Assembly: GCF_000423225.1 (NCBI RefSeq)
Contig: NZ_AUHO01000006.1
Span: 372,001-436,000, forward strand
Direction of reading: 5' to 3'
Length of the DNA stretch: 64,000 nt
DNA from: Kaistia adipata DSM 17808
Lineage (GTDB): Bacteria; Pseudomonadota; Alphaproteobacteria; Rhizobiales; Kaistiaceae
Of the stretch, positions 30,353 through 35,070 are shown in pieces. Each line of letters starts with the position of its first letter. Positions within the stretch are counted from its first letter, which is position 1. A model generated the notes under the pieces. The model worked only from the letters and a program-made list of their open reading frames with translations, had not been told where the DNA came from and did not search any database. A program made the translations under genes and the position numbers.

Positions 30353-30976
30353 TCAGAACTCGATGCCCTGCTGCGCCTTCACGCCGGAGCGGAACGGGTG
30401 CTTGATCAGCTCCATCTCGGTGACGAGATCGGCGATCTCGATCAACGCCTCGGGCGCGTTGCGGCCGGTGATGACCACATGCACGTCGGCCGGCTTCTCC
30501 GTCGTCAGGAACTGGACCACCTCGTCGACCGGCAGATAGTCGTAGCGCAGCACGATGTTGAGCTCGTCGAGCAGCACCAGGTGATAGGCGCCGCTCTTGA
30601 TCAGCTCCTTCGCCGTATCCCAGGCATGGCGGGCGGCGGCGATGTCGCGCTGGCGGTCCTGCGTCTCCCAGGTGAAGCCCTCGCCGAGCCGGTTGATCGA
30701 GACGAGGTCGCCGAAGCGCTCCAGCGCCATGCGCTCGCCCGTGTCGATCGCCCCCTTGACGAACTGGACGACGCCGACCGGCAGGCCGTGGCCGAGCGAG
30801 CGAAACGCCATGCCGAAGGCGGCGGTCGACTTGCCCTTGCCCTTGCCCGTATGGACGATGACGAGCCCCTTCTCGACGTTCTTCGAGGCGAGGATCTTGT
30901 CGCGCACGACCTTCTTCTTGCGCATCTTCTCCGCGTGACGGGCGTTCAGTTCGTCTTCGGTCATCTCGGCGGTCAT
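30353..30976 (-). CDS. cobO: Corrinoid adenosyltransferase CobO (CobA/BtuR type)
   Basis: A 207-residue ATP:corrinoid adenosyltransferase that adds the upper adenosyl ligand to reduced corrinoids. The P-loop is HTGKGKGKSTAAFGMA. Other family segments are VGVVQFVKGAIDTGERMALE, LVLLDELNIVLRYDYLP and ITGRNAPEALIEIADLVTEM. The Lys/Arg-rich N-terminus (EKMRKKKVVRDKILASK) is typical. ATG overlaps the cobN stop by four bases, so it is coupled to the chelatase step that precedes it in the aerobic pathway. Confidence 0.96.
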   Translation of the reverse strand: MTAEMTEDELNARHAEKMRKKKVVRDKILASKNVEKGLVIVHTGKGKGKSTAAFGMAFRSLGHGLPVGVVQFVKGAIDTGERMALERFGDLVSINRLGEGFTWETQDRQRDIAAARHAWDTAKELIKSGAYHLVLLDELNIVLRYDYLPVDEVVQFLTTEKPADVHVVITGRNAPEALIEIADLVTEMELIKHPFRSGVKAQQGIEF

Positions 30977-33900
30977 GCGAATTCCTTTCGGGCGTCGCGG
31001 CGGGCGGCGAGCGCTGCCAGCCGTTCATAGGCGCTGTTGGCACGCGGCGACCAGAGGCCGCGCTCCATGGCTTCGAGAAAACGGTCCGCCATCTCGGCAA
31101 GCGCCGGGGCGTTCACGTCGGCGATGAAGTCGCGAACCTCGTCATCGACCATATAGGCGTCGTAGAGGGCGTCGAAATGGTGGTCGCCGACGGCGTGGGT
31201 CGTCGCGGCGAAGGCAAAGAGATAGTCGAGCGTCGCCGCCATCTCGAAGGCGCCCTTGTAGCCGTGCCGCATGCAGCCGGCGATCCATTTCGGGTTGATG
31301 GCGCGTCCGCGCACGACGCGGCCGATCTCCTCCGCCAGCGGCCGCACGACGGGCGTCTCGGGTCGGGAATGATCGCCGTGATAGAGGCGGGGCGCCGTGC
31401 CCTTCAGCGTCTCGATCGTCGCCGCCAAGCCGCCCTGGAACTGGTAGTAGTCGTCGCTGTCGAGGATGTCGTGCTCGCGATTGTCCTGGTTGTGCAGGAC
31501 GGCGTCGGCAGAAGCGAGCCGTTCGCGTAGGCGATCGCCCGCCGCCTCGCCCTCGGCGCCGCCGCCATAGGCGAAGCTCGACCAGGCGAGGAAGGACTCT
31601 GCAAGATCGCCGCGCGTGTCCCAGACTCTCTCGTCGATCATCGCCTGCAGGCCGGCGCCATAGGAACCGGGCTTCGAGCCGAAGATGCGGGCGAGGTCCT
31701 GGCCCGCGCCATGGGCGGCCGCGATCGGGTTGGCATCGGCCGGCTCTTCGCGTGCGGCGACGGCGCGGATGGCGGAATCGATCAGGTCGATCTGTTCCGG
31801 GAAGGCGTCGCGGAACATGCCGGAGATGCGCAAAGTGACGTCGACGCGCGGCCGCTTCAGCTCGGAGAGGGTCAGGATGCGAAAGCCGGTGACGCGGCCG
31901 GTGCCGGCCTCCCAGACCGGTTCGGCGCCGATCAGCGCCAGCACCTGCGCGATGTCGTCGCCGCCGGTGCGCATGTTGGCCGTGCCCCAGGCGGATATCG
32001 CCACGGAGCGCGGCCACTCTCCCTCGTCCTGCATGTAGCGCAGCACGAGCGCCTCGGCGGCCACCTTGCCGATCCGCCAGGCGGAGGCGGTCGGCACGGC
32101 GCGGGTGTCGACCGAATAGAAGTTCCGGCCCGTCGGCAGCACGTCCGGCCGGCCGCGCGACGGCGCGCCGGAGGGGCCGGGCGCGACAAATCGGCCATCG
32201 AGCGCCGTCAGCACGGCGGCGATCTCTTCCGTCCCGCAGCGGTCGAGCGCCGGCGCGAGTTCGCGGGCGATCCAGTCGAGGACGGGCGCGGCGGCAGGGC
32301 CGGGCTCAAGCGGAGCTCTCTCCCCCCTTGTGGGGGAGAGTTGGAGTGGGGGGAGCCCATCCGAATGGAGCGCCTTGTCGAGCGGAAGTCCCAGGCCCGG
32401 CGCTCCCCCTCCCCAGCCCTCCCCACAAGGGGGAGGGAGAAGGACAATCCCGACCGAACGCTTCGCCAGCATTTCGATCCGCTCGACCGTGTCGCCATTC
32501 GTGCGCCAGGGCGCGTCGGTCAGGCTGGCGAGCGCGCCGGGGCGAACGCCCTCCCAGTCGGCGGAGAGATCGCAGGCGAGCGGGTCAAAGCTGTCGAGAC
32601 CGAGATCGGCAGCGAGCGCGCGATGCAGCGACGCATCTTCGGCGCGGCCGCCGGAGCGCGGCACGCGGGCGATAGCGACGAGCGTGTCGAGGCGGTGCCC
32701 GTCCACCGGGCTGCTGCCGAAGATGTGCAGCCCGTCGCGGATCTGCAGTTCCTTGATCTCGCAGAGATGCGCGTCGATGGCGCGCAGCGCGCTGCCAGAA
32801 TCGGCGTCGCGGCCGATACCAAGGTCGCGGTCGATGCCGTGGCGCACCGCCTGGTCGAAGATCTCGCGTTCGAGATGGTCGCGCCGGCGCGGATCGGCGC
32901 CGAGCGCCAGATGGTATTCGTCGATCAGCGTCTCGATCTCGGCGAAGGCGCCATGCGCCTCGGCGCGTGACAGCGCCGGCATGAGATGGTCGACGACGAC
33001 TGCCGAGGCGCGGCGCTTCGCCTGCGCGCCCTCGCCGGGATCGTTGACGATGAAGGGATAGATCAGCGGCGTCGGCCCGAGCACGACTTCCGGCCAACAG
33101 GAATCCGACAGGCCGAGCGCCTTGCCGGGAAGCCATTCGAGATTGCCGTGCTTGCCGACATGCACGATGGCATCGACGTAGAATTGCGTCCTGAGCCACG
33201 CATGAAACGCGAGATAGTGGTGCGGCGGCACGAGGTCGGGATCGTGATAGGTCGCCTTGGGATCGATGCCGTAGCCGCGCGCCGGCTGGATGCCGACGAC
33301 GACGTTGCCGAAGCGATGAATGGCGAGCCGGAAGGCGCCCTCGGCGAAGAACGGATCGGCCTCCGGCGCGCCCCAGCGTTCGGCGAGCCCGTCGCGCACG
33401 GATGACGGCAGCCCATCGTGAAAAGCGCGGTAATCGGCGAGGGAAAGGGAGGCGCCTTCGATGCTCTGGCTCCCCGCTGGGGAGCCAGCCGCCCCTTCAC
33501 CTCTCCCTGAGGGAGAGGTCGACGGCGCAGCCGGCGGGTGAGGGTTTAGGGAAGGATCCGGAGAGGGCCACATCCCCTCGCCGGTCGCCACACCCGATGT
33601 CGCGTTCGAGCCCTCTTCGGATAGTTCGTAAACCCTCACCCGGCCCTTCGGGCCGACCTCTCCCTCAGGGAGAGGTGAAGGAAGAAAGCCCTCGCCCGCT
33701 TGCGGGAGAGGGTTGGGTGAGGGTTCTTGCTTCAGCTCCGCCCGCTTCGCCAGCGCGTTGGTCGGGCCGGCGAGCAGAAGTTCCATCAGCGCCCTGCCCG
33801 TCTCCGGGAAGCCGGAGAGACTATAGCCGGCCGACTTCATGGCGGCCGCGATCCGCGCCGCGCTTTCCGGCGTGTCGAGGCCGACGCCATTGGCGAGACG

Positions 33901-35070
33901 GCCGTCGCGGTCGGGATAATTGGAAAGGACGAGCGCGATGTTGCGGTCGGCGGGCTCCTTCGCCGCGAGCCGCACCCAGTTCGCCGCCTGCGCCGCGACG
34001 AAAGCGACGCGTTCACAGTCGGCGCGATAGACGAGGATGCGGCTGTCGGCGGGGCCGCCGCCTGCGAGCTCTTCCTTGAAGGAAACGGCGCGCGTGAGAA
34101 TTCGGCCGTCCACCTCGGGGAGGACGACGTTCATGATCAGGTCGCGCGGCCCGAGGCCCCGGCTCGATTCCAGCCACGCCTCGCGGCTGGTGCCGGCGAA
34201 GACGAGTTGCAGAACCGGCCTGCCGGCGCGGTCGAGCACGGTCGGCTCGTGCGGACGGCCGGGACGCGAGATGGCGAAGGCGGTGGCGTTGAGGACGATG
34301 GCGGGCCGAAGGTCTTCGAAAGCCTGCTCGATGAACGATGCCGCTGCCTCGTTCTTGAGGCTGGAGGCGAAGATCGCGACGGTCGAAATCCCCTCCCGGT
34401 CGAGCGCCTCGACCATGGCGTCGATCGGCTCGGTCGAGCCGCCGGGAATGACTGAACGGTAGAAGGTGAGCAACGCGACGGGCCGATCGGCGTCCTCGGG
34501 CCGCAGCGCCTCCGTGACGACGCCCTCGCCCGGCCGGTAGAAGCCGACCTCGGGCAGCACCTGCGGCTCCGGCGGCGCGTCGCCGGCGCCGATGACATGC
34601 CGGAGATAGGCCAGCGCCCGACCGACATTGATCGCGCCGCCCTCGGCGCAATAGCGCCAGAGTTTTTGGGCGATCTCGGGGGCGACGGTCGTGTAGGCCT
34701 CGAGCGCCGGATCCCAGCGATCCTCGCCGGGCACCACGACGATCTCGGGTCCGCCGGCGCGAGAAAGCGCGCGGATCGCCTCCAGCCCGTACGGCCAGTA
34801 GCCGACGCCGCCCATCATGCGGATGAAGACGAGCTTCGCCTGCCCGACCGTCTTCTCGAGATAGAGATCGACCGAATAGGGGTGCGTCAGCTGCATCAGA
34901 TTGGCGAGGCGCAGCGACGGTCCCTCCGGCGCGGAAGCATACGCCGCCGCGAAGGCGGCGAGCTCCGTGTCGGCGGCCGAGAGGATGATGACGTCGCCGG
35001 GCGACTGGTCGAGATCGACGGCGCTGCCGCCGTCGTCGATCCGCTCCATTTCGCCGGCGACGAGATGCAT
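30973..35070 (-). CDS. cobN: Aerobic cobaltochelatase large subunit CobN, lengthened by in-frame repeats
   Basis: The magnesium-chelatase-H-like subunit that binds hydrogenobyrinic acid a,c-diamide and, with CobS and CobT (not in this window), inserts cobalt. The 1365-residue frame shows the family motifs GGVGYWPYGLEAIRAL, LALVLSNYPDRDGRLANGVG-like text (NIALVLSNYPDRDGR), VHVGKHGNLEWLPGKALGLS, RPDVLPTGRNFYSVDTRAVP and KGAFEMAATLDYLFAFAATT. CobN is usually about 1250-1275 residues. The surplus is explained by two Pro/Gly-rich blocks (about residues 448-535 and 877-918) translated from palindromic repeats. The frame stays open through both. Whether the protein is fully active is untested, but the conserved segments on both sides are intact. 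Confidence 0.93.
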   Translation of the reverse strand: MHLVAGEMERIDDGGSAVDLDQSPGDVIILSAADTELAAFAAAYASAPEGPSLRLANLMQLTHPYSVDLYLEKTVGQAKLVFIRMMGGVGYWPYGLEAIRALSRAGGPEIVVVPGEDRWDPALEAYTTVAPEIAQKLWRYCAEGGAINVGRALAYLRHVIGAGDAPPEPQVLPEVGFYRPGEGVVTEALRPEDADRPVALLTFYRSVIPGGSTEPIDAMVEALDREGISTVAIFASSLKNEAAASFIEQAFEDLRPAIVLNATAFAISRPGRPHEPTVLDRAGRPVLQLVFAGTSREAWLESSRGLGPRDLIMNVVLPEVDGRILTRAVSFKEELAGGGPADSRILVYRADCERVAFVAAQAANWVRLAAKEPADRNIALVLSNYPDRDGRLANGVGLDTPESAARIAAAMKSAGYSLSGFPETGRALMELLLAGPTNALAKRAELKQEPSPNPLPQAGEGFLPSPLPEGEVGPKGRVRVYELSEEGSNATSGVATGEGMWPSPDPSLNPHPPAAPSTSPSGRGEGAAGSPAGSQSIEGASLSLADYRAFHDGLPSSVRDGLAERWGAPEADPFFAEGAFRLAIHRFGNVVVGIQPARGYGIDPKATYHDPDLVPPHHYLAFHAWLRTQFYVDAIVHVGKHGNLEWLPGKALGLSDSCWPEVVLGPTPLIYPFIVNDPGEGAQAKRRASAVVVDHLMPALSRAEAHGAFAEIETLIDEYHLALGADPRRRDHLEREIFDQAVRHGIDRDLGIGRDADSGSALRAIDAHLCEIKELQIRDGLHIFGSSPVDGHRLDTLVAIARVPRSGGRAEDASLHRALAADLGLDSFDPLACDLSADWEGVRPGALASLTDAPWRTNGDTVERIEMLAKRSVGIVLLPPPCGEGWGGGAPGLGLPLDKALHSDGLPPLQLSPTRGERAPLEPGPAAAPVLDWIARELAPALDRCGTEEIAAVLTALDGRFVAPGPSGAPSRGRPDVLPTGRNFYSVDTRAVPTASAWRIGKVAAEALVLRYMQDEGEWPRSVAISAWGTANMRTGGDDIAQVLALIGAEPVWEAGTGRVTGFRILTLSELKRPRVDVTLRISGMFRDAFPEQIDLIDSAIRAVAAREEPADANPIAAAHGAGQDLARIFGSKPGSYGAGLQAMIDERVWDTRGDLAESFLAWSSFAYGGGAEGEAAGDRLRERLASADAVLHNQDNREHDILDSDDYYQFQGGLAATIETLKGTAPRLYHGDHSRPETPVVRPLAEEIGRVVRGRAINPKWIAGCMRHGYKGAFEMAATLDYLFAFAATTHAVGDHHFDALYDAYMVDDEVRDFIADVNAPALAEMADRFLEAMERGLWSPRANSAYERLAALAARRDARKEFA
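32318..32440. repeat. REP-like inverted pair inside cobN (block 2)
   Basis: Two related units in opposite orientation lie inside the cobN frame. The left has the hairpin CTCTCCCCCCTTGTGGGGGA and continues GTTGGAGTGGGGGGAGCC; the right, read in reverse, gives CTCCCTCCCCCTTGTGGGGA then GGGCTGGGGAGGGGGAGC. Translated they give the low-complexity LLPPPCGEGWGGG and LQLSPTRGERAP text absent from CobN family motifs. Confidence 0.82.
33466..33729. repeat. REP-like repeat cluster inside cobN (block 1)
   Basis: About 264 bases within cobN contain four palindromic units. They are a perfect CTGGCTCCCC/GGGGAGCCAG hairpin (33466-33488), an ACCTCTCCCTGAGGGAGAGG unit (33494-33547), its inverted homologue with the same ends (33630-33681), and a CTCGCCCGCTTGCGGGAGAG unit (33689-33725). 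The second and third share CCTTCACC and GGGTGAGGGTTT ends in opposite orientation. In protein they read as Pro/Ser/Gly-rich filler such as PSPNPLPQAGEG and STSPSGRGEGA. Confidence 0.85.

Follow-up and report, generated by a model that had tools for sequence, protein, structure and literature searches.

The window, the whole stretch of 64,000 nucleotides from Kaistia adipata that was analysed, carries the gene cobN as a single open reading frame of 1365 codons on the minus strand. Kaistia belongs to the Hyphomicrobiales (Kaistiaceae), and the genus grouping of the window genome also includes Kaistia dalseonensis and K. defluvii. The 1365-aa product matches the Pfam family CobN-Mg_chel (PF02514) with 1177.6 bits over aa 138-1345, and the ORFs that adjoin cobN look like cobalamin genes. 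A CobN sequence from the PDB aligns to this protein in three pieces, aa 1-449, 541-886 and 929-1354, and the gaps between them correspond to two repeat-coded stretches, here called insert 1 and insert 2. The features are as follows.

30973-35070, minus strand: cobN, for the catalytic subunit of cobaltochelatase; contains two repeat-coded inserts (ORF, Pfam, PDB alignment)
33466-33729, minus strand: insert 1 (aa 448-535), a compound hairpin block read in frame; 264 nt = 88 codons, open
33495-33680, minus strand: copy of element A, 186 nt, with two inverted hairpin arms; its centre is 57 nt longer than in the usual copy
33499-33519, unstranded: arm palindrome of element A, one side
33656-33676, unstranded: arm palindrome of element A, opposite side
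33689-33712, unstranded: hairpin B, encodes NPLPQAGEG; missing here in three of six close relatives (L032, L033, L048)
33466-33488, unstranded: fourth palindrome of insert 1, found in this genome only among seven close CobN genes
32296-32442, minus strand: insert 2 (aa 877-925, 49 residues), element C, read in frame; dispersed matches in the genome

An earlier note on this DNA had described cobN as open across 33466-33729, with a stop-free block of 264 nt that adds 88 residues rich in Pro, Ser and Gly and consists of four hairpins, two of them an inverted homologous pair. This description holds: Pro, Ser or Gly make up 43 of the 88 residues (49%, against 20% in the remaining CobN), all four hairpins are present, and the inverted pair is perfect over 28 nt (33494-33521 and 33654-33681). 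The pair proves to form the arms of a single composite element, A, and the second insert, at 32296-32442, had been missed. The strand of insert 1 folds with z = -10.1, and none of 200 shuffles was equally stable. Insert 2 (z = -1.1) folds no better than its shuffles, and because its own fold is unremarkable its status as a repeat rests on its dispersed matches. Neither insert peptide has a Pfam match at E values up to 1. Two Rfam matches to insert 1, mir-4788 (34.5 bits) and whalefall-1 (20.5 bits), lie below the gathering scores of 91 and 37 and were rejected as chance.

Element A and element C in the genome

Element A has 152 matching pieces in its own genome (40 of 151 candidates scored). 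Its palindrome, CCTCTCCCNNNGGGAGAGG, searched as a pattern with a 3-base spacer and up to three mismatches, occurs at 217 places in the genome as opposed to 28 for the same pattern read backwards. In the stretches fetched around these copies, palindrome pairs lie 97-101 bp apart in 46 of 49 cases, with overlapping stretches counted twice; in the cobN copy the spacing is 157. With the boundaries that we chose, 26 of 43 distinct copies have a unit length of 129 nt. Covariation was scored on 24 such 129-nt copies that align in a common register, out of 42 distinct copies; another 129-nt copy was excluded. In this set 98.6% of the cells in the stems are paired, 8 of 39 pairs are changed on both sides, and the covariation score was reached in none of 500 shuffles. 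Because its stems covary, we regard element A as a conserved structure, whose hairpin is probably recognised either as DNA or as RNA. It has the two inverted arms and the conserved base-paired structure of a BIME-like composite. For element C, 44 pieces matched with 40 of 55 candidates scored; by our merging they fall into about 25 places besides cobN.

Several features of mobile repeats were sought. Element A gave no match to plasmids, and inspection of the ends of the printed or aligned A copies showed no GTAG tag. The tag CGTC is not at the outer ends of A, occurs beside some of its arms, and stands at the outer ends of a further family, D (L039). No clean target-site duplication appears in the alignment of the second insertion site. 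A Y1/RAYT transposase (PF01797) was found in none of the 13 genomes of the genus, own genome included, in a search that matched 3 of 21 genomes overall and in which controls were positive in 5 of 14; an origin by a REP-RAYT system is therefore not supported. The genome is rich in palindromic repeats, most of them intergenic, although this transposase was not found in it.

Linker lengths and insertion places in relatives

CobN was found in 53 of 61 related genomes. The named comparison set comprised the best 80 of 592 loci, all of which gave a CobN ORF. The earlier note had proposed an alignment with related CobN proteins to see if the block is missing from them, and in most it is: the first linker measures 12-15 residues in 76 of the 80 named loci, compared with 105 in this genome. 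Four loci lie outside this range, from two Kaistia (L076, L080), a Bauldia (L078) and a Novosphingobium (L077); the CobN of L076 (K. dalseonensis), with both linkers filled, is the same as that of genome G009, and that of L080 (K. defluvii), with the first linker filled, the same as that of G002. The second linker has 12-18 residues in 69 of the 80. Both linkers are short in four genomes of the genus (L049, L050, L053, L054).

A wider set of 109 CobN rows contained four duplicates (L076, L078, L079 and L080, L079 being L053). Among the 105 non-duplicate rows the first linker reaches at least 30 residues in 17 and the second at least 28 in 19; as rows were chosen as single ORFs, frames broken by an insert would be under-counted. 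Of the places where the 109 rows carry an insert of at least 20 aa, two stand out, after aa 444 (18 rows) and after aa 879 (16 rows); the minor places are aa 189-194 (4 rows), 825 (2), 850 (1) and 47 (1). The inserts after aa 189-194, in rhizobia and relatives (L125, L137, L146, L091), are repeat-like, as are further inserts after aa 825 in L137 and L146. The CobN of L035 (G015) carries a third repeat-like insert, of 129 residues, after query aa 47, near the N-terminus.

Among the 13 other genomes of the genus, cobN lies in one open frame in 12 and is split between contigs in G007. Repeats are common points of misassembly, and cobN is split in this way in some relatives; an artefact of assembly or sequencing, which the earlier note had named as a possible refutation, is nevertheless scarcely credible. 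The same arrangement, varied by point changes and in-frame indels, occurs in the separately assembled genomes G003, G011, G012, G010, G002 and G007, and related forms of the insert are found in independent assemblies of other species.

Repeat families at the two linkers

In 12 of 16 genomes the inserts match dispersed repeats of their own genome, among the matches listed: the window genome, G005, G009, G015, G016, G004, G018, G060, G020, G024, Novosphingobium G061 and Meinhardsimonia G065. G016 and G018 have few such matches. For the inserts of G062, G063 and G066 (L088, L142, L129) the sole match in the own genome was the insert itself, that of G064 (L108) had two matches, one of which was itself, and these four were not counted as repeats. 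A hairpin test, with the duplicate rows L076, L078 and L080 dropped beforehand, gave z < -3 in 27 of 40 inserts as against 3 of 120 control windows from the same genes; 13 of the 40 fail this threshold. The inserts of L042 and L044, in which the hairpin signal is absent, were not accepted as repeats.

By eye, the inserts belong to at least five families of elements: A, C, D (CGTC-type), E (G060) and Novosphingobium or rhizobial types. Family A, recognised by its translated motif, occupies site 1, the first linker, in seven genomes and site 2, the second linker, in G005 (L041). Two genomes, G015 and G004, have the same family at both sites (86% and 82% identity). On a 38-row tree of the core gene, the smallest number of changes that accounts for the presence of repeat-supported inserts is 7 at site 1 (17 rows) and 5 at site 2 (10 rows, with 7 long site 2 rows lacking repeat support set aside), and linker length alone gives 7 changes at site 1 and 10 at site 2; each change may be a gain or a loss. 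The centre subtype of element A requires 3 changes on the tree. A rhizobial CobN stretch (L146) matched plasmids at 649 places in 166 records, a count that mixes flank and repeat: the first 75 or so bases of the stretch are cobN flank, and one listed plasmid record matched there, in an annotated cobN.

Reading frame and selection

Insert 1 is open and in frame in seven of seven close cobN copies, two of these loci being partial genes. Among 43 distinct dispersed copies of element A, 12 can be read without a stop in the cobN frame as extracted and 6 on the other strand, and the length is a multiple of three in 27 and not in 16. These figures bear on the idea that the hairpins are not translated, being skipped by ribosome bypass or removed by RNA processing. 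The very stable fold of the insert 1 block speaks for such an event, but bypass requires neither multiples of three nor stop-free sequence; the close cobN copies have both, unlike the dispersed copies, which often lack one or the other. We therefore hold bypass or processing to be very improbable.

The CobN core, compared with six relatives, has dS of 0.36-0.57, dN of 0.06-0.10 and dN/dS of 0.15-0.21, and is under purifying selection. Selection on insert 1 is relaxed: its dN/dS against the same relatives is 1.4, 0.8, 1.1, 0.8, 0.6 and 0.5, values that are noisy as they come from 41-83 codons, like those of insert 2 (0.6 and 0.5, against L032 and L033). Insert 2 is present in this genome, L032 and L033 and missing from L036, L037, L046 and L048, all four of which carry insert 1.

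The arms of element A are less diverged than the core at synonymous sites. Against L036 they have no synonymous differences in 38 codons, compared with a pS of 0.379 in the core, and they lie below the core, less extremely, in the other usable pairs as well (in L046 the right arm is mostly deleted, which makes this locus unusable for the comparison). Such identity despite a diverged flanking gene hints at homogenisation between copies. It is quite possible, though short of probable, that exchange with dispersed copies, through gene conversion or repeated replacement, maintains the similarity of the inserts, and that the linkers are cassettes into which repeats are swapped; this could act on top of insertion. 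The three changes required by the A centre subtype and the single family at both sites of G015 and G004 also fit exchange. On the other hand, independent insertions into tolerant linkers would give the same picture, as would a constraint that acts on the palindromes at the DNA or RNA level, and the arms are short and were compared between cobN genes.

Predicted structure and origin of the inserts

An AlphaFold2 model of CobN aa 250-1365, built with 58 sequences, has a mean pLDDT of 82.9 and a pTM of 0.86. It superposes on the CobN structure 7c6o with Z 53.1 (924 residues, rmsd 2.1) and on 9fpc with Z 53.2 (367 residues, rmsd 1.3). Within this range, runs of at least three residues with pLDDT <50 occur only at aa 444-536, 884-916 and 1360-1365, the last being the C-terminus (195-287, 635-667 and 1111-1116 in model numbering). 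Low pLDDT is partly expected at a linker with few aligned residues; with this in mind, the model suggests that the linkers carrying the inserts are disordered. The surmise of the earlier note that the block is tolerated as a loop agrees with the model, in which low predicted confidence falls exactly at the block, as would be expected of such a loop.

The inserts are very probably non-autonomous palindromic elements, selfish DNA of the REP or MITE kind, that landed in linkers of CobN and are translated as tolerated disordered loops. Elements of this kind would land in two flexible linkers; since CobN stayed under selection, only insertions that keep the frame and contain no stop would have survived; and the inserts would then be translated as disordered loops rich in Pro, Ser and Gly that the CobN fold can tolerate. 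The dispersed repeats, the absence of the block from most relatives, the open frame and the conserved flanks were observed and speak for this origin. So do the relaxed selection inside insert 1, the low model confidence, and the repeated occurrence of different families at these two linkers. Beyond these observations, we infer that the peptide is really made, that the insert is neutral and that it arrived by transposition or recombination.

The inserts could instead be functional, forming a loop with a role in regulation or docking (of CobS/CobT or a cobalt chaperone, for example) that is selected for length and disorder, with the repeats merely its raw material. Many genomes of the family do retain long linkers, and several have an insert at each of the two sites. 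Their content, however, is not conserved, the repeat families differ between genera, L049, L050, L053 and L054 of the same genus manage with short linkers at both sites, and selection within insert 1 is relaxed, so that we consider a functional loop unlikely.

Comparison with known elements

In-frame palindromic elements inside genes are already established as a kind by the work on Rickettsia palindromic elements (RPEs) and on intragenic REPs. RPEs and the Wolbachia palindromic elements are palindromic repeats of 100-150 bp that lie in preexisting ORFs and leave the frame intact, and in the biotin ligase genes of Wolbachia and Rickettsia different elements occupy the same region, for which hotspots have been considered, according to the cited parts of PMC3767692 and PMC10969869. 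Intragenic REPs of the GTAG and CGTC types are described in several species as single, grouped or dimeric, sometimes twice per ORF, in the portion of PMC3733652 that is cited here. The same portion reports intragenic REP clusters that encode 43 to 82 residues (BMC Genomics 2013;14:522, PMC3733652), REPs at about the same site of recB in two Xanthomonas, and expression in vivo of some R. conorii proteins that carry RPE-1.

The resemblance to rickettsial elements that the earlier note had pointed out stands as a likeness of kind: RPEs and the Wolbachia elements are the same sort of in-frame palindromic repeat inside an ORF as that of Kaistia cobN. Unlike RPEs, the Kaistia elements are GC-rich, and the linkers are shared by a larger number of families and of lineages. 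The Kaistia inserts also resemble the intragenic REPs of free-living bacteria, published in 2013, in being in-gene and compound, in numbering up to two per ORF and in sharing sites, in so far as the cited portion of PMC3733652 describes these. Neither the GTAG nor the CGTC tag was seen at the outer ends of element A, whereas family D of a relative starts with CGTC, and cobN is not among the genes in the intragenic-REP section of PMC3733652. Like BIME or MITE-like composites (MITEs are reviewed in PMC10969869), element A is short and dispersed and has paired inverted arms; as for the marks of a MITE, no clean target-site duplication was seen in the site 2 alignment and no partner transposase in the search for Y1_Tnp.

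Of the features of the general kind, Kaistia shows dispersed copies in the genome, an in-frame position in a conserved gene, and absence from relatives. The case is less singular than the earlier note implied, as cobN elsewhere, other genes and other genera show the same phenomenon. A full-text literature search, outside which most subscription papers and preprints lie, showed by title no paper on repeats in CobN, and the literature searched gave no case of one protein with the same linkers entered by several families across genera at this scale.

In-frame copies in other proteins

The search for further coding copies in the genome, also proposed in the earlier note, yielded three other conserved proteins with accepted internal in-frame copies, all of family C.

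L215:1587-5000: hydantoinase A/B protein, family C at a linker
L220:1655-3337: tandem ABC ATPase, family C at a linker
L221:2098-3897: ATP-dependent DNA ligase, family C at a linker

For this search 80 stretches around repeats were examined, 57 picked for element A, 22 for element C and 1 other. The coding filter, which combined GC by codon position with Pfam, is crude; GC by codon position was used because a codon-usage model trained on 29 ORFs was too noisy. It passed 14 of 68 candidate pairs of ORF and element, and 8 ORFs from these were scanned. Two of the eight had no family and were not accepted, one ABC ORF and one permease ORF in which the repeat lies ahead of the recognised domain were not counted. 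Stretch L162, which had seemed to be in frame, failed on GC by codon position. Among the copies examined in this genome, element A in frame was accepted only in cobN.

The families in the linkers of the three proteins were read by eye from translations. Two of the 14 other genomes shown, G009 and G006, clearly have a filled hydantoinase linker, whereas the remaining 12 have a shorter one, and a second linker of the same protein is filled in G010, G002 and G005. The linker of the DNA ligase is also occupied in G003 and G009; among the 11 relatives shown it is short in 8 and does not align in one. The ABC ATPase linker holds family C here and in G003 and family A in G010, which is a further point for exchange with dispersed copies.

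We offer tentatively, as something more doubtful than otherwise, that certain inter-domain linkers of conserved proteins serve as permanent landing pads: palindromic repeats would be captured there, exchanged, and homogenised with the many non-coding copies of the same genome. If so, a stretch of a conserved enzyme would evolve in concert with intergenic selfish DNA and not with its own gene. The case extends coding palindromes to the genus Kaistia, shows a route from non-coding DNA to protein, and turns the homogenisation of coding with non-coding copies into a testable question. Different families have repeatedly entered the same two CobN linkers, as well as linkers in three other proteins, with the frame preserved, which amounts to a natural replicated experiment, and the inserts map where a protein tolerates new disordered sequence.

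Another of the eight scanned ORFs, which encodes a GNAT acetyltransferase (L216:1833-2552), reads into a repeat of family C close to its end, and the repeat may supply its C-terminus.
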